Position numbers and translations under genes: made by a program. From Sulfuriflexus mobilis (GTDB lineage: Bacteria > Pseudomonadota > Gammaproteobacteria > AKS1), in the NCBI RefSeq assembly GCF_003967195.1, contig NZ_AP018725.1, positions 1,612,001 to 1,676,000 on the forward strand: 64,000 nt of DNA, given 5' to 3'. The stretch's first letter is position 1. Each line of letters begins with the position of its first letter. Shown one piece after another: positions 7,484 to 44,087 of the stretch. A model generated the notes under the pieces. That model was not told the origin of the DNA. It searched no databases and saw only the letters and a list, made by a program, of their open reading frames with translations.

Positions 7484-7828
7484 TCAAGTATCCGGGGGCG
7501 GCATCGGCAGGCCGGCTAACTTACAAAGTTCATGGATGGGGTCGGTGGGAAACAAGTCATAGATATGTTTCTCATAGGCCTTCTGATCATGAAAACGGCT
7601 TCCCTTCGATTTTCCCAGCGTGCGAACCATACTATGCATAGTCGGGTTCCTCTGGTTCTCATCATGATAATCTCTGAAGTACCCAATTAATTCCCAGTGA
7701 TCGACAAACAGCTCGATACCATCACGCCGGGCGATCTCTTCGGCAAACTCTTTGCTCCAATCTGACATATTACACAGGAAGCCCTGTTCATCAGTATCTA
7801 TCATCTTTTCGTCAACTTGAATTTTCAT
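7484..7828 (-). CDS. DsrC/TusE-family protein keeping only the upstream cysteine
   Basis: A 114-aa paralogue of DsrC, recognisable by the N-terminal DEQGFL..W and by the C-terminal arm LCKLAGLP. DsrC carries sulfur as a trisulfide between two cysteines of this arm. Here the upstream one is kept (C102), but the arm ends PMPPPDT, so the penultimate cysteine is missing. It therefore cannot form the intramolecular disulfide or trisulfide chemistry of DsrC. GAGGT lies 8 nt before the ATG. The gene stands alone, far from dsr. It may act as a sulfur-binding or regulatory protein, but its role is not known. Confidence 0.8.
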   Translation of the reverse strand: MKIQVDEKMIDTDEQGFLCNMSDWSKEFAEEIARRDGIELFVDHWELIGYFRDYHDENQRNPTMHSMVRTLGKSKGSRFHDQKAYEKHIYDLFPTDPIHELCKLAGLPMPPPDT

Positions 7829-31935: not shown

Positions 31936-32709
31936 CTACACCCAGATCGCGATCAGGGCCATTAGGCCGAATCCACCCGTGATGAGAAGAGCCTTGACCC
32001 AACGGTCATCGGCTTTCTCGAAGACATCCTTGATGATGTCGACAACCGCGACATAAAGAAACGTGCCTGCGGCCAAACCATCAAAAACGGCCTCGAATGC
32101 GGCATTCGCATTGCTTGATAATGTTGTCGAGAACGCCGTGCCGATAACCACTCCCAGAGGCGTCATGGCTGCAAAGAAGCCAATGATGACAACATGTCGG
32201 AAGGTGGGAAAATCACTTTCTTTCAGACTGACGCCAAGCGCGAAGGCAGCTGCGCCCTTGTGTGCAATGATCGCAATGAATATGGCTATGGCTGACACCA
32301 GTGTGGCTTCCAGTCCCAGTGATGTTCCTGCGATGATTGAATGAATCGAAAGGATGAAACACAACAGAAAGGGATAAACCGGCCGCCCTTTGGACATTGT
32401 CCCCACATTCTCACCATCACCCAATGCCGCTTTCTCCAGCAACAGCACAAGGAGAAAGCCCACCCCACAAATCAGAGCGGGAAAGGGGAAATCGACGTCT
32501 CCGGCAAACGTTTTGAAGTTCCCCTCCGCATCCGGCAACATGTGCAGAAGACCCGCACCAAGGAAGATACCACCGGCAAAGGCATTGCCCCAGGTTAGCT
32601 GACGCACTCCTTGCCGGGAAGCACGCATTCGTGTGGGCGCTATGCCCGCAAATAGCCCGGCGGCAAAGATAATTAGTAGAAAAAGAAATTTAAACCAGAG
32701 TATTTCCAT
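31936..32709 (-). CDS. ZIP-family metal transporter
   Basis: A 257-aa protein with about eight membrane helices. It has the metal-site motifs HSIIAGTSLG (helix IV type) and HKGAAAFALGVSL (helix V type) that define ZIP transporters for Zn(II), Fe(II) or Mn(II). A short loop after helix III replaces the usual His-rich region. It lies just beyond the end of the minus-strand dioxygenase/Cas6-like gene run, 38 nt after the preceding gene, so it could be co-transcribed and supply iron to the dioxygenases. The metal cannot be read from the sequence. Confidence 0.85.
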   Translation of the reverse strand: MEILWFKFLFLLIIFAAGLFAGIAPTRMRASRQGVRQLTWGNAFAGGIFLGAGLLHMLPDAEGNFKTFAGDVDFPFPALICGVGFLLVLLLEKAALGDGENVGTMSKGRPVYPFLLCFILSIHSIIAGTSLGLEATLVSAIAIFIAIIAHKGAAAFALGVSLKESDFPTFRHVVIIGFFAAMTPLGVVIGTAFSTTLSSNANAAFEAVFDGLAAGTFLYVAVVDIIKDVFEKADDRWVKALLITGGFGLMALIAIWV

Positions 32710-32747: not shown

Positions 32748-33419
32748 TTATACATCACCCCACATACGAATAAGATTTACATAACTTCGATCCAAACGCT
32801 TGGTATTTTCATCATCTGGCGCATCCTTTAACAACTGCTCTTTGACGAGGTACATATCATAGAGCAGTTCACGCCGGGCCGGTTCACGCACCAGGCTTTG
32901 CAGCCAGGTAACAGCCACCAGACGTGTGCCGCTGGTGACTTCATTGACGTGGTGGACGCTGGATGAGGGATAAATGACGGCATCACCGGCTGCGAGTTTG
33001 ACCTCGTGCGCACCGTACTGGGTATTGATAACGAGTTCACCACCTACGTAATCGGATTTGTCGTTTAAGAATACCGTGATGGAGATATCGGAACGGTATG
33101 GGGTGTCGGCCTGCATGATCGGGTCATCGACGTGATCCCCATAAGACATGCCCTTACCGTAACGGGCGTAGTACGGCGAAGCTACCTTCATCGGCAAGGC
33201 GGCGGCACGGTAGGTCGGGTGCTGCACGAGGCGGGTCATCACCAGGTTATTCAGTTGCTGAACGTCCTGGGCACGGACATCGACCTCTTCGTTGTGTTTA
33301 ACGCGTTGTGCGGCCATACCGGCGGAGAGCTTGCCATCGATAAACGGCGCCTTCTCCAATGCACCTTTGACGGCGTCGAGTTCCCGGGTATTCAGGACCT
33401 TGGGTATTTCCAGCAACAT
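32748..33419 (-). CDS. PKHD-type Fe(II)/2-oxoglutarate hydroxylase (YbiX/PiuC-like)
   Basis: A 223-aa protein, the same size as YbiX/PiuC. The iron ligands are H96 and D98 (GDHVDD) and H157 (SVHHVNEV), with R166 positioned to bind 2-oxoglutarate. Family members hydroxylate an unknown substrate and are often iron-regulated. GGGGA lies 7 nt before the ATG. It is the last of ten genes in the minus-strand run that ends here. Two other proteins of the run (35748, 38553) also carry non-haem iron dioxygenase motifs. Confidence 0.9.
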   Translation of the reverse strand: MLLEIPKVLNTRELDAVKGALEKAPFIDGKLSAGMAAQRVKHNEEVDVRAQDVQQLNNLVMTRLVQHPTYRAAALPMKVASPYYARYGKGMSYGDHVDDPIMQADTPYRSDISITVFLNDKSDYVGGELVINTQYGAHEVKLAAGDAVIYPSSSVHHVNEVTSGTRLVAVTWLQSLVREPARRELLYDMYLVKEQLLKDAPDDENTKRLDRSYVNLIRMWGDV

Positions 33420-33458
33420 AACGCATTCCCCTGCTTTGTATTTTGTTAACGATGTCCC

Positions 33459-34589
33459 TTATACCGAGGCATTAAAGCGTTTTAGGGCCTCACCGGAATC
33501 GAGTACGGCACGCACGGCATCGGCGCATTCGGCAAGTGTCTCGTAACGTTTCAGGTGCCAGAGTATGTTGGCACCACCATAAACGAGTGCATCATAGGTA
33601 ATGCCCTTCTCGCCAGCCAATGCGGCAAGACCCGCCTCAACGGCGGCCTTGGCCACGGCCTCTGACAGGAATGGCGCCTCGACTTCATCGTTACTGCCTG
33701 GCTTGCGCGGCAGGTCAGCCGGGATCGGCACGGCGCGCAACTCCTGCTCAATGCCGAGATCCTTCGGTTCGACTTCAGCACTGCGTACCTCGGTTTCACC
33801 TTCATAACTGATGATCTTGCCGGTCTGGCGCAGCGATGGGATCACCCCGCCCTCAATACCGCGCACGAGTAGCGCGCTATCAAAGCCGGAGTGCGCGGCG
33901 AGCATGGCATACACGGGTGGGTAGGGTTTATGTACGTAACCGCAGACATGGTGGGTCTTGCCCCTGGCGCGGATCGGCATAGTCTCGGTTTCAACCGTGG
34001 TAATGGTCGGACGTTTAATCACGAGTGTGCGAAAGTCGGTCAGGGCATTCAGCTTCGGGCAGAACTGGCTTTGATCAACATAGGCCCAGCCGATGTCTTT
34101 ATTGGCGATCTGCGTAGCAGCCTGTTGCGGACTCAAGGAATCGTCCTTGCCGGCGGCACGCATGACCTGGCGATGGGTGACACCAAATTTTGGGCTCACC
34201 GTTTCCATACCGTGCGAGACGGCCGGGATGCCACAAGCGGCCATGACGGCAGGCAGGAACGGTGAGGCCGGCAGCGTGCGGTTATAGCCGTCATAGGGGT
34301 CGCCGATATCGACGAGTTCATCCACCTCGGCGGTAACACGTTCGGTGCAGTCGATAATGCCATCGAGGACGCCGCGATTTTCATCCGGGGTTTCACGTTT
34401 CATGCGCAGACCGATCAGGAAGATCCCCGCCTGGACCGGGTCGATGTGGCCATCGAGGATGGCACGCATACCACCACGCGCCTCATCCTGTGAAATATCC
34501 TTACTCAACTCGGGGCCGGTGGCAACGCGCTGGATAATTGAATGCATCAGGGCCTTGTCTTGTGCGACCTGGGTGCTGTTATCGCTCAT
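33459..34589 (-). CDS. TrpD2/YbiB-like phosphoribosyltransferase-fold protein
   Basis: A 376-aa protein with the anthranilate phosphoribosyltransferase fold: a helical N-terminal half (QDEARGGMRAILDG..QAGIFLIGLRMK) and an alpha/beta domain. The PRPP loop, normally GTGGD, reads GDPYDGYNRTLPASPFLPAV, closer to the YDGARR..LTPLLA pattern of YbiB. E. coli YbiB does not make anthranilate products and binds nucleic acids. AGGAG lies 6 nt before the ATG. No trp genes are near, so a role in tryptophan synthesis is unlikely. Confidence 0.8.
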   Translation of the reverse strand: MSDNSTQVAQDKALMHSIIQRVATGPELSKDISQDEARGGMRAILDGHIDPVQAGIFLIGLRMKRETPDENRGVLDGIIDCTERVTAEVDELVDIGDPYDGYNRTLPASPFLPAVMAACGIPAVSHGMETVSPKFGVTHRQVMRAAGKDDSLSPQQAATQIANKDIGWAYVDQSQFCPKLNALTDFRTLVIKRPTITTVETETMPIRARGKTHHVCGYVHKPYPPVYAMLAAHSGFDSALLVRGIEGGVIPSLRQTGKIISYEGETEVRSAEVEPKDLGIEQELRAVPIPADLPRKPGSNDEVEAPFLSEAVAKAAVEAGLAALAGEKGITYDALVYGGANILWHLKRYETLAECADAVRAVLDSGEALKRFNASV

Positions 34590-34639
34590 TATTTACTCCT
34601 GTTTCTTAAGGTTAGCGCTGGGCTGCTTGTTTAATTACG

Positions 34640-34951
34640 TTAACCGATCGCCACAAAAATGCTGTTGTCTTCGACCTTGACCGGGTACACAGCCAGGTCT
34701 TCTTCGGCAGGCTCATCAAGTGCCTTGCCGGTCTTTAAATCGAAACGACTGCCGTGTAATGAACATTTCAGACAATCGCCTTGCAATGCGCCCAGTGCCA
34801 ATGAAAAGTCTTCATGCGTACACATTTCATCACAGGCATAAATCGTACCATTGGTGTTCGCCAACAAGATACGTCTACCATCAAGTTCGACGCGAAACAT
34901 CTTGCCGGGGGCGACATCATCGAGTGTGGCTACTTGTATAAAGTCAGTCAT
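34640..34951 (-). CDS. Rieske-type [2Fe-2S] ferredoxin, 103 aa
   Basis: The cluster ligands are C44-T-H46 and C63-S-L-H66, the standard Rieske pattern in a small soluble ferredoxin like those serving dioxygenases and nitrite reductases. The ATG at 34951 has AGGA 6 nt upstream; a longer frame reaches into the next gene and is rejected. It lies between a TauE-like permease and the TrpD2-like protein, and could deliver electrons to an oxygenase or reductase of the same run. Confidence 0.9.
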   Translation of the reverse strand: MTDFIQVATLDDVAPGKMFRVELDGRRILLANTNGTIYACDEMCTHEDFSLALGALQGDCLKCSLHGSRFDLKTGKALDEPAEEDLAVYPVKVEDNSIFVAIG

Positions 34952-34994
34952 GTTGTTTCCTGTTTTTACCATTATACGTAAAAAGTGTTCACAC

Positions 34995-35723
34995 TTAGCG
35001 GCTGGCGGTGTAAAACATTGAAATACCACCAAGCAAAATCACCCATGCCACGACACGCTTGAAGACCGTGTCATTGACCTTGTGATGCAGGTGGTTGGCA
35101 TACCACAGGCTCACAATGAGGAATGGCGCACTGATCAACATTACACGGCCTATTTCACCGGTGATGGTGCCATTACTGATATAGCCCACCGCGCGCACGA
35201 GGTTCATGGACAGAAAAAACGCCAATGCGTAATTACGGATTAAAATTTTTCTGTCAAACGTACCCATCAGCCGCGTCATTGCGATCGGCCCACTGATACC
35301 AAACAGGGCCATCGAGGTACCCGCCGCGGTATCGAGGACCCGGCCACTGATAGCACCTATCTTCAGCTTGCCCGGCGCCATCACAAGGTAAGTGCCCGAT
35401 AAGGTAATCACCGTAGCGAGTAATACCTGAAACAACTCGCTGGAGATATTATAAAACACATAAAAGCCCGCTAATGAGCCGAGCGCCGCAAAACCTACCA
35501 TGCCAGCGAGAAAACGCAGTTCCACCGTGCGTTCCGAACGGGTCAGGGCAATCGTGCCGACCAGTACCTGTGGCAGCAGCGAATAGATCACGAGAGTCTT
35601 GGCATCGATAAAAAAACTCATAATGGTGATCATCATGATCGTGCCCGCCAGGCCAAAGGTGATCTCAAAGGCATAAGTCAGCATGCAGACCACGGTCAGA
35701 ACAGCGATTAAAGCCGCGCTCAT
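34995..35723 (-). CDS. TauE/SafE-family permease
   Basis: A 242-aa hydrophobic protein with about eight helices and the family pattern FEITFGLAGTIMMITIMSF near the N-terminus and ISGPIAMTRL in the middle. TauE/SafE proteins export sulfite or organic sulfur anions. It belongs to the minus-strand run beside the dsr operon, where an export role for a sulfur anion would make sense. It is only distantly similar to the copy at 2706. Confidence 0.82.
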   Translation of the reverse strand: MSAALIAVLTVVCMLTYAFEITFGLAGTIMMITIMSFFIDAKTLVIYSLLPQVLVGTIALTRSERTVELRFLAGMVGFAALGSLAGFYVFYNISSELFQVLLATVITLSGTYLVMAPGKLKIGAISGRVLDTAAGTSMALFGISGPIAMTRLMGTFDRKILIRNYALAFFLSMNLVRAVGYISNGTITGEIGRVMLISAPFLIVSLWYANHLHHKVNDTVFKRVVAWVILLGGISMFYTASR

Positions 35724-35747
35724 AACATTATCACTGCCTTCGCGTGA

Positions 35748-36347
35748 TTACGCGAAGCTCACCCAGGTAGTGGCGATATACTTCATACCCTTTTCCAGCG
35801 TCGCGTTGCGATGGATATGCGTCCAGAATGGCGGGAACAGCACCAGCTTGCCACGTTGTGGTTGCACGCTGACATCCTGCACGGCAAAGTCGGTAGTGCC
35901 GCCCGGACCCGCTACATCGTTCAAATACCAGATCGCGACGAGCTGGCGCTGGCTGAACTCACCCGGACCACCATCGATGTGCCAGTGGTAAAACTCACCT
36001 TCGTTAGTGCGCTGTAACTGGTAACCCATGTCACGCATGCGGTTCACGGCAAAGAAAGGATACTCGGCGGCCAATGCGCTAATGGCCTTGCCCAGCGACT
36101 GAAACAATGCCTGATCGACATCTTTCCAGTCATCACGACCACTGATGCGCAGGTCGGTGGAGCGTTTAATCGATTGCTCGAGGCCTTCACCCTGGCCGAT
36201 ACGACCATCGTGCTGCTGCTCGGGGTTGGCTTCAAAACGCGCCACCATCTCGTCGCACAGTGACGCGGGCAAAGCATTCTCTACCTCGTAGATAAAGCTA
36301 TGCGGTTTTAGTTCGCGCAATGTGTAAGCTGTATCACTCATGGCCAT
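35748..36347 (-). CDS. Fe(II)/2-oxoglutarate-dependent oxygenase (P4H-like)
   Basis: A 199-aa protein with H123 and D125 (YHWHIDGG) and a distal histidine in FPPFWTHIHRN (H177 or H179), plus K189 as a possible 2-oxoglutarate contact. It fits the prolyl-4-hydroxylase-like oxygenase superfamily. A second ATG lies two codons in, at 36341. A strong hairpin separates it from the DsrC-like gene upstream, so expression may be attenuated here. Substrate unknown. Confidence 0.85.
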   Translation of the reverse strand: MAMSDTAYTLRELKPHSFIYEVENALPASLCDEMVARFEANPEQQHDGRIGQGEGLEQSIKRSTDLRISGRDDWKDVDQALFQSLGKAISALAAEYPFFAVNRMRDMGYQLQRTNEGEFYHWHIDGGPGEFSQRQLVAIWYLNDVAGPGGTTDFAVQDVSVQPQRGKLVLFPPFWTHIHRNATLEKGMKYIATTWVSFA

Positions 36348-36371
36348 ACTGGGTTTATTTCCGTTAATACA

Positions 36372-36400
36372 GAAAAGGCTGTCATTAAGACAGCCTTTTC
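36372..36400. terminator. Perfect 12-bp hairpin after the Cys-less DsrC-like gene
   Basis: GAAAAGGCTGTC and GACAGCCTTTTC pair perfectly around a 5-nt loop. A-rich and T-rich stem ends make it a possible terminator in both directions. On the minus strand it lies 40 nt after the stop of the DsrC-like gene and 25 nt before the oxygenase start. Partial read-through would make the DsrC-like protein more abundant than the distal genes. Confidence 0.7.
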
Positions 36401-36440
36401 TTAAAACAACCCGATTACGTAACGTAACCTCTAGCGTTGT

Positions 36441-36779
36441 CTAGTAACCGCCCTTACGCGTACTCTTAGGCAGGCCGGCAAACTTACGACCCTGTTTGGA
36501 AGGCATACCAGGAAACATTTCATACATCGTTTTAGATGTAACCTTATCGCCCCATAGTTTACTCATAGCTTTAAGAATCGTACGTTCATTCGGCTCATTA
36601 CCACCATTATTAACGTGCTCATCACGCAAGTATTTAACGACGTCCATATGTCGCTCCGTCATTTCAAGTCCATCGGCGTCAGCAATCACCTTGATCAGAT
36701 CTTCAGTCCAATCGTTTGCATCTACCAGGTAACCGTCTGCATCGGTTTCAATGGTCTTACCACCAACTTCGTAGGCCAT
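36441..36779 (-). CDS. DsrC-like protein without any cysteine (RspA type)
   Basis: A 112-aa DsrC homologue (EVGGKTIETDADGYLVD..W at the N-terminus, KFAGLPKSTRKGGY at the C-terminus). Positions equivalent to the two functional cysteines are R98 and about K109, and the whole protein has no cysteine. It therefore cannot carry sulfur. The literature groups such forms as RspA, proposed to be regulatory. It sits downstream of the Cas6-like gene and is followed by a strong hairpin. The start has GAGG 10 nt upstream. Confidence 0.88.
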   Translation of the reverse strand: MAYEVGGKTIETDADGYLVDANDWTEDLIKVIADADGLEMTERHMDVVKYLRDEHVNNGGNEPNERTILKAMSKLWGDKVTSKTMYEMFPGMPSKQGRKFAGLPKSTRKGGY

Positions 36780-36903
36780 AGTACTAAGTCCTCTATTACA
36801 AGTTTACTTACGATGAAAAAATTTGCGTGAATTGTACCGGAAAATTCAGATTTCTCCACCCATAAGGGCAATTTATCCACGCGCTTTAAATTACTCCGGA
36901 TTT

Positions 36904-37587
36904 CTACTCCAGAATCTCGTGTACCTCGGCAATACCCTTTTGCGGGATGAACAGGCCGCAACCCATGTGCTGGTGCTTGCCAATACCGTGATGCTGAATC
37001 TTCAGCGATTCTTCCGGTTTCAGCTCGGCGATCATCAAGCTTGAAGTGTTTAATTTGCCTTCGCCAGTACGCATACTGCGCCCCTTGCCCGGCAACATCT
37101 TTCGCGGTTTCACACCTATGGCGGACAGCTCCTCGGCCACACTGCGCATAAAGGCCTCTTCGTCCATGCCGTCCTCAATGACATTATAGAGCGAAAACAA
37201 GGTTTCCAGAGCATGCAAGGGACGTTGTTCCATGCTCAATACCTCCAGTTCATGACCGGACACCTGCAGGGTCTTGCCGGCCAAGCCGGCCGCAGACTCG
37301 ACATGCCCCACCGGCGCACGCAGCATCAGCTTGGTACGCCGAGACAGATGCAGCAATTCATCCTCGCCCTCCGGGCGCATCCAGCCGTTACCGGTCTCGG
37401 GAATGTGGATGGGATGCATACCGGCACCCCTGGTGTCCTTCAACCAGGGCAAGTGCTCTAATAAGGCTACAGACAGGGCATGCGCATGATCAACCGGCAG
37501 ACAACGACAACGGATCTTGTAAACCAGATCCACAACCGCGTCACCATTAGCGGTCTTGTTCGGTTCATTGTCTTCCTGCCAATACAT
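36904..37587 (-). CDS. Cas6/Cmx6-like protein, solitary (no CRISPR)
   Basis: A 227-aa protein with the features of type I-MYXAN Cas6 (Cmx6): VDLVYKI..CLPVDHAHAL (19-38), LEHLPWLKD (43-51), LHLSRRTKLMLR (79-90), LAGKTLQVSGHELEV (102-116) and a C-terminal glycine-rich loop GIGKHQHMGCGLFIP (201-215). Cas6 proteins cut CRISPR precursor RNA. Here there is no array and no other cas gene in 64 kb. Its ATG is one base after the stop of the upstream gene (TGATATG), so it is firmly part of the run beside dsr. A host RNA target is an inference. Confidence 0.78.
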   Translation of the reverse strand: MYWQEDNEPNKTANGDAVVDLVYKIRCRCLPVDHAHALSVALLEHLPWLKDTRGAGMHPIHIPETGNGWMRPEGEDELLHLSRRTKLMLRAPVGHVESAAGLAGKTLQVSGHELEVLSMEQRPLHALETLFSLYNVIEDGMDEEAFMRSVAEELSAIGVKPRKMLPGKGRSMRTGEGKLNTSSLMIAELKPEESLKIQHHGIGKHQHMGCGLFIPQKGIAEVHEILE

Positions 37588-37588
37588 A

Positions 37589-38296
37589 TCAGTTTACCGG
37601 CAATTTGGCCCAGATCGCCTCACGATCCACCCACCAGTCGTCCTGGACAAGCACATCGATGACGTTACGCATGCGGCCGAGAAATTTTTCCGGTTCGCCC
37701 AGTTCCATGCGCTGGAACCACGCCGCAAACTGCTCCTGGCTCTCAACGTTGCTATGCCGACGTGCCACCGTGGCAAGTAGCGAGTTGGTGAAAAAAGTCA
37801 GGTCTTCGTGTTTTTTGCCCTTGGTACGGATATCGGCAATGTAGTGCGCCACCGCTGCGGCCAGGGCGGCCCCATCGGAATCAGCCGGGGTTTCATTGAC
37901 CACGTGTTGCAATAAGGCCACGGTCAACTCCGGTTCAACATCCGGGAAGGTCACACCGAGCCAGATCCCCTGGCCGAGTGCCGGTAATGACATGGGCTGA
38001 TCGGCCATGAACATGTTGTTACAGGCCTGAACGGCACCATCCCAGCTTTCGCGTTCCTTGAAGGTATCAAAGGCCTCACGCGCCAGGTCAAAACCCTCTT
38101 CGCCACGTTCGAGGTCGACCAGTACGGCCGAGGCCTGTAGCTGCAATTCGGCCTTTTCCAGGGGGTCGTAACCGGCAGGCAGCTCGATGATCTGATCCTG
38201 CAGCTCCTGCAAGCGGGCCTCTAAAAGCCCGGTTGGTTGTGCCGCATCATCGGCATCATCGGCATCTCTGATCTCTTCAGTCTTTATATATTTCAT
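37589..38296 (-). CDS. Protein of unknown function, 235 aa, coupled to the Cas6-like gene
   Basis: A soluble, acidic, helix-rich protein with an Asp-rich N-terminus (DADDADDAAQ) and repeated helical segments resembling a tetratricopeptide-type fold (LEKAELQLQASAVLVDLERGE; FDLAREAFDTFKERESWDGA). No signal peptide or catalytic motif is seen. Its stop is one base before the start of the Cas6-like gene, which implies coupled translation and perhaps a complex. I recognise no family. Confidence 0.7.
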   Translation of the reverse strand: MKYIKTEEIRDADDADDAAQPTGLLEARLQELQDQIIELPAGYDPLEKAELQLQASAVLVDLERGEEGFDLAREAFDTFKERESWDGAVQACNNMFMADQPMSLPALGQGIWLGVTFPDVEPELTVALLQHVVNETPADSDGAALAAAVAHYIADIRTKGKKHEDLTFFTNSLLATVARRHSNVESQEQFAAWFQRMELGEPEKFLGRMRNVIDVLVQDDWWVDREAIWAKLPVN

Positions 38297-38329
38297 AATA
38301 TTACAGGATATTCCTAATGTGAATACTTG

Positions 38330-38536
38330 TTAGCGAGTCACCGAGTAAATACCGGCAAAGGCCCCTTCGAGACGGTCTTCCCAATTTTCAGGGGTATCCG
38401 GGTAGGTCGGCTTTACATCCATATCAAAATGGATCTCGCCGCTGGTACGGGCCTTTTCCTCAATGACCTTAATCAGCTCTTCGAACCGCTGCAGGTCATG
38501 GTTCTGCATCAATACTTCACTCAGGTAGAGCATCAT
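38330..38536 (-). CDS. Small protein of unknown function, 68 aa
   Basis: An acidic protein starting MMLYLSEVLMQNHDLQRFEE, with one amphipathic helix pair and no cysteine. AAGGA lies 5 nt before the ATG at 38536, and the gene is packed 16 nt from the dioxygenase gene and 33 nt from the next. The tight packing and ribosome binding site support a real gene. The function is unknown; it might be a subunit or adaptor of the neighbouring proteins. Confidence 0.65.
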   Translation of the reverse strand: MMLYLSEVLMQNHDLQRFEELIKVIEEKARTSGEIHFDMDVKPTYPDTPENWEDRLEGAFAGIYSVTR

Positions 38537-38552
38537 CAATGTCCTTTTTCAA

Positions 38553-39500
38553 TCAATTAGTAGAAATCCGCGCGTAATAACGGGCCCGATACAATAGACG
38601 TTGTTCTGCCTCGGTCTCTCCCTGCCTGAAGGCAGTGCGGTTATGCAATACATTATTGCTCAACACACCCTCTCCGGCCCCGAGGCGGTAATGAAACACG
38701 TCTGGGTTCTCATCTGACAACAGTTTTTCCAATGCAGCCAGTGCCTTACGCGTCATCTCATCATCACGCCAGACAATACTGCGAGTCCGCGCCGTATAAC
38801 GCATATGGAGGCGACCTGTCGCTGGATCAAGGGAGAAGACCGGCCCGGTTTGTGCAGGGCGGGTTTCCGCGCCGGATTCCGTGTTCGCCGGAATGGTCAT
38901 GGCCTCGGGGTGCATGAGGGCCTTGATATAGTCCGGGTTCTCATCACGCAGACGTAAGTAAACCATTTCCGGGTCCAGTAAGGCATTTTCGCCGCCCTCC
39001 ACGGCCGGTCTGACACAATGCAGGATAAAGGCACGGATCTGCTGTGCGGAGGCATTATAATAGCCGTCGGTGTGCCAGAGCAGGCGTTTATCGGAATACG
39101 GGATATAGCCCCTTTTATTTTTGCCCTCGACGACGGTCAGCGAGGTGATGCCATCATCATCGGCGAGCATGTTCGGATCCAGGCCTGCCAGGCCCAGTTG
39201 CTGGCCCAGCTTACGCGGGATATCCTTGTCTTCAAGGCAGCCTAGCTTGCTTTTATATATCAGCATGTTACAGATATTAAGTCGACTGCGTATTAAGGTT
39301 ATCTCCGCCTCGCTAAGGGACCTGGGGTCATCGATCTCGAGCAGCAAGTCTTCAGCCGAACGTGGCCGGCTGGCAAGCTTTTGCGCGCGCCACTGTTGAT
39401 AGCGGCTATCATTGCCCAGCTCAAAAGGATTGTCGGCAGTGCTTGTCATGACCTTCGAAATACCCTGTGCTGCCCACGTGATCCCATCTATGTCACCCAT
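38553..39500 (-). CDS. TauD/TfdA-family dioxygenase
   Basis: A 315-aa protein with iron ligands H143 and D145 (LLWHTDGYYN) and distal H286 (SNNVLHNRTAF), the pattern of TauD/TfdA and clavaminate synthase-like enzymes. Taurine dioxygenase itself releases sulfite from organosulfonates. This protein is a distant relative with an unknown substrate. The start could instead be the ATG at 39449 (MTSTADN). It is the first gene of the minus-strand run and is divergent from dsrA across a structured 490-bp region. Confidence 0.82.
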   Translation of the reverse strand: MGDIDGITWAAQGISKVMTSTADNPFELGNDSRYQQWRAQKLASRPRSAEDLLLEIDDPRSLSEAEITLIRSRLNICNMLIYKSKLGCLEDKDIPRKLGQQLGLAGLDPNMLADDDGITSLTVVEGKNKRGYIPYSDKRLLWHTDGYYNASAQQIRAFILHCVRPAVEGGENALLDPEMVYLRLRDENPDYIKALMHPEAMTIPANTESGAETRPAQTGPVFSLDPATGRLHMRYTARTRSIVWRDDEMTRKALAALEKLLSDENPDVFHYRLGAGEGVLSNNVLHNRTAFRQGETEAEQRLLYRARYYARISTN

Positions 39501-39994
39501 CTATATAGAGTAATGTTATTAGCCCCGCGATAACATCTGCCAAGACCAAGCAATTTCATCGACTTTTTGACAGAGGCTGCGCACTGTAGTAAAAAATGCG
39601 CTCGCAGGAAAGCCCCCGGAAGGGAGATACGCAGCATCGATGCTAAATAATGACCCTATTTACCTTATTTAATAGTGGTTGCGCTGGGGATTAAAGGATT
39701 TTATTTGCTGGGACGTGACCTTGCATATAAAATCTTGCGTCTTATCTATATCCCCTTTGGGAGGGGTATAAGAGAATTTATACACCCCCAAAGAAAGGTT
39801 TTGTTGTGGTGGGACATCGGTAGAATGTCGCAACATCAAACACAGGGGTGTTGATTTGTTCTGTGAAGTAATCCACATATTGATTACTCGTGACAGAACA
39901 GAGGCAGTCGGCATCTCAACTTGTAAGTTTTGTTTTGAAAATAAACTGTGGCTATACACCGCGAGGTGGAAGCTCTACAGGAGGAAATCCAAAA
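39501..39994. promoter_or_regulatory. Divergent control region and long leader of the dsr operon
   Basis: This 494-bp region lies between the TauD-like gene and dsrA and contains no gene. Three inverted repeats are visible: CTTTGGG..CCCAAAG forming an imperfect 16-bp stem (39755-39793), GACAT/ATGTC (39813-39829), and a composite dyad with arms TTCTGT/ACAGAA and AGTAATC/GATTACT (39859-39898). The last looks like an operator or an RNA stem. The dsrA ribosome binding site AGGAGG lies at about 39979-39984. I could not place -35 and -10 boxes with confidence. Confidence 0.6.
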
Positions 39995-44019: not shown

Positions 44020-44037
44020 GACTTCGCATACCGGTTT

Positions 44038-44057
44038 GGCCGGGACTTGTCCCGGCC
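44038..44057 (+). promoter_or_regulatory. Hairpin between dsrC and dsrM
   Basis: GGCCGGGA and TCCCGGCC pair perfectly around a 4-nt loop (CTTG), 18 nt after the dsrC stop, with no strong T-run after it. It probably protects or processes the dsrC mRNA end or attenuates read-through into dsrM. Confidence 0.7.
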
Positions 44058-44087
44058 TCACTTACTTACGCCATGAGGTATTAATCG

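Follow-up and report, generated by a model that had tools for sequence, protein, structure and literature searches.

The question raised by the locus described here is why a gene of the Cas6 family of CRISPR (clustered regularly interspaced short palindromic repeats) RNases lies beside the genes of oxidative dissimilatory sulfite reductase (Dsr). The locus is a run of ten genes in a 64,000-nucleotide stretch (the window) of the 3.1 Mb genome of Sulfuriflexus mobilis, which a first-pass annotation had read as one unit combining RNA-processing folds, iron oxygenases and sulfur proteins. Ten minus-strand open reading frames (ORFs) are found at 32748-39500 in the order given by that annotation, divergent from dsrA, which starts at 39989, and the family names are mostly correct as judged with Pfam and NCBIfam profiles. 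Starting from the dsrA side, these genes encode a TauD-like dioxygenase, a 68-residue protein (g68), a 235-residue protein (g235), the Cas6-like protein, a DsrC-like protein (DsrCL), a P4H-like oxygenase, a TauE/SafE permease, a Rieske ferredoxin, a TrpD2/YbiB-like protein and a PiuC/PKHD-type dioxygenase. The results indicate that the first five genes are almost certainly a conserved accessory module of oxidative (reverse) dsr in Gamma- and Betaproteobacteria, functionally linked to this pathway.

Linkage of genes 1-5 to oxidative dsr

We compared the surroundings of the Cas6-like gene in about 45 additional genomes. The order TauD, g68, (g235), Cas6, DsrC-like, divergent from dsrAB, recurs class-wide. 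Among the 42 loci with enough flanking sequence, TauD is present in 34, g68 upstream of Cas6 in 37 and g235 in 24, and a DsrC with a KGGY tail directly follows Cas6 in 35. The Cas6-like gene and dsrA are also found in the same genomes. Among 369 genomes of the class, 117 have the Cas6-like gene and 118 have dsrA; the two occur together in 110, Cas6 only in 7, dsrA only in 8 and neither in 244. The association is strong (Fisher p = 1.5e-74), with the reservation that the test assumes independence, which does not hold among related genomes, an effect limited by a sample spread evenly over many families. Several of the exceptions to the pairing come from incomplete assemblies, and a dsrA fragment lies at a contig edge in at least one genome with Cas6 only (G319). 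Cas6 and dsrA lie on one contig in 83 cases, in 81 of which they are within 5 kb of each other, all divergent with Cas6 on the 5' side of dsrA; the median distance for pairs on one contig is 1654 bp. In a separate draw of 339 genomes of the phylum, Cas6 is found in four. They are all of the in-class genomes of this draw that have dsrA; no Cas6 is found in its remaining 48 genomes with dsrA. In the three added Cas6 genomes of the phylum draw, which we infer from genome size and locus form to be betaproteobacterial, Cas6-DsrCL adjoins dsr and TauD is close by. Cas6 is retained even in reduced genomes of about 1.0-1.1 Mb. Several class genomes contain second dsrA copies, without recognisable dsrEFH-MK downstream and without the operator described below. 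The linkage and co-occurrence of the Cas6 module with dsr are computed directly from these genomes. In several genera, genes for a rhodanese, MsrB (SelR) and a DUF6866 protein are found repeatedly on the downstream side of the module (locus L041:6752-12762).

The claim that all ten genes form one unit does not hold. The DsrCL gene is preceded by a 124-bp gap, and a terminator-like hairpin, AAAAGGCTGTC-TTAA-GACAGCCTTTT, followed by T-rich sequence, is located between the DsrCL and P4H genes (about 36372-36399, minus strand). This hairpin is also present 3' of DsrCL in both congeners (loci L010 and L011), with a changed loop. Genes 1-5 and 6-10 are therefore probably different transcription units. 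The ten-gene run is followed by an eleventh gene on the same strand, encoding a ZIP transporter (31936-32709), and in other genera the P4H, PiuC and TauE genes, where they are not missing, mostly have the opposite orientation. The complete same-strand run is confined to the genus (L058/L059). Persistence of the genes together in relatives, set beforehand as a test, is thus seen for genes 1-5 and only partly for genes 6-10. Because the latter vary in linkage and strand, the locus is read as a five-gene module with a looser set of neighbours.

The Cas6-like protein and DsrCL

The Cas6-like protein (36904-37587, minus strand) matches PF09559 (2.4e-57, 194 bits against a cut-off of 26.7) and TIGR02807 (cas6_cmx6; 129.3 bits against a curated cut-off of 98.85). 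Its structure model (predicted local distance difference test score, pLDDT, 88.5) superposes on Cas6 of a type I-B CRISPR-associated transposon (CAST; 8fcj_B) with Z 23.0 and a root mean square deviation of 2.2 over 198 residues, and on Pyrococcus (Pf) Cas6, both RNA-bound (3pkm) and free, with Z about 15-16. The Gly-rich C-terminal loop, in which G201, G203, G209 and G211 are invariant in 53 relatives, is also present in CRISPR Cmx6, as is a helix-1 histidine, H34, which is 98% conserved and may be catalytic. Q198 is common to bona fide Cmx6 as well. The Cmx6 proteins used for comparison come from annotated cas operons located on cyanobacterial plasmids. The model and the alignment thus show that the Cas6 fold and the Gly-rich loop are retained. 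Because of this fold, the loop and the conserved residues, RNA binding by the protein is likely and RNA cutting is plausible.

The dsr-linked protein resembles type I-MYXAN (I-B-like) Cmx6 and CAST Cas6 in profile, fold, Gly-rich loop and helix-1 histidine, but differs from them in that it lacks cas genes, is fixed beside dsr, occupies a separate branch and has motifs of its own, W3 and GNGW, which are characteristic of the class family and absent in beta members. In the tree, one branch (support 100/98) parts dsr-linked Cas6 from CRISPR Cmx6, and the branches are long. Cas1 is not found in the S. mobilis genome or in 16 of 24 other genomes tested, several reduced genomes included. The genes around the Cas6-like gene are dsr-locus genes, and not the cas1 or other cas genes expected of a CRISPR-Cas system. 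The Cas6-like protein does not belong to a CRISPR system; it appears to have been recruited from the Cmx6 branch once, long ago, and to serve CRISPR no longer. The first-pass annotation had proposed a system that is tied to sulfur oxidation, includes an RNA-processing fold and is not for defence; dsr linkage, CRISPR independence and the kept RNA-binding loop bear this out well for genes 1-5. On plasmid pGMOR1 of Gloeobacter morelensis (locus L102), a Cmx6-like gene adjoins a gene of the PAPS (3'-phosphoadenosine 5'-phosphosulfate) reductase family and a cupin gene, with cas genes absent in the 6.6 kb read.

Cysteine-less relatives of DsrC are known. DsrCL (36441-36779, minus strand; PF04358, 3.6e-29, 101.8 bits) keeps the DsrC body, its best solved match being Allochromatium vinosum DsrC (1yx3), and contains no cysteine, as the first-pass annotation had stated. 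It has KQG..RKGGY where DsrC has KQAC..TGCV, so that both C-terminal cysteines are replaced; the tail reads RKGGY in the class alignment and KGGY in the beta loci. The penultimate cysteine is called strictly conserved in all DsrC (PMC3397948). TusE is likewise defined by a penultimate sulfur-accepting cysteine, in place of which DsrCL ends in KGGY. The S. mobilis genome contains nine DsrC-family matches with varied tails, and among the eight that were read DsrCL alone combines absence of cysteine with the KGGY tail. One DsrC-family protein, encoded at 7499-7816 of the window (minus strand), ends in PPPDT and has no terminal cysteine. DsrCL thus shares the DsrC body with DsrC and TusE, but unlike them has no C-terminal cysteines and carries an invariant KGGY tail. 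Having no cysteine, it is unable to pass on sulfur in the manner of DsrC or TusE, and the conservation of its tail suggests a function in binding.

The dsrA promoter and the other genes

The region between TauD and dsrA contains a compound element with nearly fixed spacing, which consists of the palindrome TAYCCC-N4-GGGRTA, the sequence CACCCCATNGGNAGGGT and a TANA[CA]T box. In S. mobilis, all on the plus strand, the palindrome is represented by a degenerate copy, TATCCCCTTTGGGAGG, at 39749-39764 (element score 34.1 against 10.4 for the best shuffled sequence), the second element is CACCCCATNGGNAGGGT-like (39782-39800) with a spacing to the palindrome that is constant in most of 90 upstream regions, and the probable -10 box, TAGAAT (39821-39826), is at a fixed offset within 1-2 nt. 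The compound element is found in these 90 of 119 upstream regions; its top scores reach 61.7, and none of 357 shuffles exceeds 10.4. This comparison is somewhat generous, because the score threshold was chosen from these data. A genome has about one exact copy of the palindrome, in most cases at dsrA. It precedes 70 of the 80 dsrA genes with the module and 2 of the 14 without it. Five reduced genomes (G042, G288, G256, G351 and G144) keep Cas6 and have lost the operator, and therefore operator binding cannot be the sole role of the module.

An RNA hairpin of the type cut by Cas6 was considered for this palindrome and rejected. Pairing in the stem equals the expectation for independence at five of six positions and is barely above it at the sixth, so that there is no covariation, and a C-A mismatch occurs at pair 3/14 in 15 of 74 sequences. 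With independent variation of its paired stem positions, frequent C-A mismatches, an A/T-rich centre and a near-fixed distance to the -10 box, TAYCCC-N4-GGGRTA behaves as a DNA operator. This conserved dsr promoter operator is previously unreported. A variant, CCC-N4-GGGATATGG with a -10-like box, is located just after DsrCL in five loci (L062, L064, L073, L078 and L084), where it precedes a conserved small ORF (MSEKxxLIKKMLEMQKKF...). This arrangement suggests that the small ORF is a second member of a dsr regulon.

TauD (38553-39500, minus strand; PF02668, 2e-21), the first gene of the cassette, has the iron ligands HxD...H of an Fe(II)/2-oxoglutarate (2OG) dioxygenase, with H143 and H286 conserved in 100% and D145 in 97% of 39 relatives. 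It shares these residues with TmpA/BBOX-type dioxygenases, TmpA being its sole solved match, but the similarity is weak and misses the cut-offs, and the dsr-linked TauD has an Arg-rich C-terminus. g68 (38330-38536, minus strand) is a conserved acidic protein of no known family, with 11 invariant residues in 46 relatives. g235 (37589-38296, minus strand), an optional member also of no known family, is modelled by AlphaFold2 as a TPR-like helical-repeat protein of 11 helices (pLDDT 91.3); its best Foldseek matches are KLC TPR domains (E 7e-3, TM about 0.5), and its closest named relatives are from a Sulfuriflexus metagenome-assembled genome (MAG) and a gammaproteobacterial MAG. Relatives of g235 in genomes of the Beggiatoa/Thiomargarita/Marithrix type (L045, L047, L049, L050, L052-L056) are located away from dsr and Cas6.

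Outside the class, dsrEFH-type operons are present in five genomes with dsrA. In four of these five loci, TauD and g68 are present and divergent from dsrA, and in these four no Cas6, no KGGY DsrC and no operator are found; the fifth contig begins too near dsrA for a judgement. Three of the four (L231, L233 and L234) have cysG, encoding siroheme synthase, after g68, the set being divergent from dsrAB, which suggests that the TauD pair is tied to siroheme supply. Because TauD-g68 lies beside dsr also outside the class, it appears to be an older partner of oxidative dsr, and Cas6-DsrCL a younger, gamma/beta addition. Since Cas6 is dispensable for oxidative dsr outside the class, Cas6-DsrCL is not essential to Dsr chemistry, and the possibility that the module is required for this chemistry is ruled out by the absence of Cas6 and KGGY DsrC from these loci.

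The neighbours of the module, all on the minus strand, are linked to dsr to different extents. The P4H-like 2OG oxygenase (35748-36347; PF13640, 5e-12) is encoded near dsr in about 24 loci and PiuC/PKHD (32748-33419; PRK05467, 1.7e-72, above cut-off) in most loci, both mostly on the opposite strand. The TauE/SafE permease (34995-35723; PF01925, 9e-18) is near dsr in about 9 loci, the TrpD2/YbiB-like protein (Glycos_trans_3N; 33459-34589; PRK07394, 8.7e-45, and PRK08136 YbiB, 6e-26, both under curated cut-offs) is linked in 7, and the Rieske ferredoxin (34640-34951; PF00355, 1e-18) in only 3.

Possible role of the module

The explanation that we favour, tentatively and at slightly below an even chance, is that Cas6-DsrCL, as a module of oxidative dsr, tunes the output of sulfur-oxidation genes at the RNA level. 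The module would be built from the older TauD-g68 pair, an enzyme pair of the same locus, and the younger Cas6-DsrCL pair. The Cas6-like protein would bind, and probably cut, cellular RNA, and cysteine-less DsrCL with its KGGY tail would be a non-catalytic partner that signals in what state the Dsr sulfur-relay machinery is, so that the pair would act post-transcriptionally; a separate control of the dsrA promoter would be exerted through the DNA operator. RNA-level action of the module, taken by itself, is evenly balanced. A non-defence Cas6-DsrC ribonucleoprotein, once recruited from CRISPR, that cuts RNA and couples the state of sulfur relay to RNA processing is possible but short of probable, and dsr transcripts as the RNA target are somewhat doubtful. 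Direct support for RNA-level control consists of the fold, the conserved residues and the strict pairing, from which we infer, rather than compute, RNA binding or cleavage, a Cas6-DsrCL interaction and dsr regulation.

Several results weigh against RNA-level control. No conserved RNA substrate is found among the operator, the dsrA leader, the Cas6-DsrCL gap and the dsrC-dsrM hairpin, and Rfam gives no match within 24000-64000 of the window. The operator lacks covariation, as described above, and the dsrA leader and the Cas6-DsrCL gap, with mean z of -0.7 and -0.5, are not unusually structured and were rejected as Cas6 targets. A strong GC-rich hairpin follows dsrC (dsrC-dsrM gap, 44020-44087) in nearly all ordinary gammaproteobacterial dsr operons. 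It is weakened as a candidate by its unconserved sequence, by its absence from reduced Cas6-bearing genomes and by its presence in one assembly (G209) in which no Cas6 was found; it possibly underlies the reportedly higher level of the dsrC transcript. In addition, H34 is conserved but no more than a putative catalytic residue, and oxidative dsr outside the class functions without Cas6.

Control could instead be transcriptional, DsrCL being a local regulator that binds TAYCCC-N4-GGGRTA and Cas6 a helper or secondary partner. DsrC binds to the dsr promoter region, and a regulator with a single site is often encoded beside its target. The preference of the operator for dsrA genes with the module, its occurrence about once per genome and the recurrence of a variant site before the small gene after DsrCL agree with such a role. 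It is nevertheless rather unlikely, since the five reduced genomes keep Cas6 without the operator, DsrCL is at most a putative DNA binder and the conserved RNA-binding fold is left unexplained. A role in cofactor supply or assembly, in which TauD and g68 would act in maturation of siroheme or DsrAB, DsrCL would stand in for DsrC as a docking decoy on DsrAB or DsrEFH and the Cas6 fold would serve as a protein or RNA scaffold, is unlikely. The proximity of TauD-g68 to cysG in three out-of-class loci with dsrAB, the conserved active-site residues of TauD and the DsrC body of DsrCL are consistent with it, but it fits TauD-g68 better than Cas6-DsrCL, and 2OG dioxygenases depend on O2, to which sulfur oxidisers living anaerobically do not always have access.

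The remaining explanations are far less probable. Modification of tRNA or rRNA by a TusE-like relay, the dioxygenases and an RNA-binding Cas6, of which the first-pass annotation had offered a variant, is suggested by an RNA-binding fold beside dioxygenases and a TusE/DsrC relative. It is highly improbable, because DsrCL has neither of the sulfur-carrying cysteines, which makes TusE-like tRNA thiolation unlikely, and because the linkage is to dsr and not to tRNA genes. A CRISPR-Cas leftover, or a solo Cas6 serving CRISPR arrays elsewhere, would agree with the assignment to type I-MYXAN Cas6, but is scarcely credible: besides the separate branch and the retention in reduced genomes, the lack of Cas1 in S. 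mobilis and in the 16 relatives, together with the fixed position at the side of dsr in 81 genomes, rules out a CRISPR remnant.

No paper with both Cmx6 and DsrC was found in a literature search that covered few subscription journals. The dsr papers searched do not mention the module genes under the terms used, and no dedicated regulator of oxidative Dsr was found described in the literature searched. The parts belong to known families, and their assembly and setting appear undescribed. Like the accessory genes dsrL, dsrN, dsrR and dsrS, the module is strictly linked to oxidative dsr; unlike them, it is divergent and located upstream of dsrA.

Oxidative Dsr is a main route by which Gammaproteobacteria of sediments, vents, oxygen-minimum zones and animal symbioses oxidise sulfur. 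If the module controls Dsr, a part of nearly every such gammaproteobacterium has been overlooked under the automatic label 'CRISPR-associated protein'. The favoured explanation, if true, would mean that a CRISPR RNase has been reused for metabolism and that a DsrC relative works without the cysteines taken to define its family. The conserved operator provides a handle for finding the regulator of dsr, and the module may add a hitherto unseen layer of control to a sulfur pathway of global importance.

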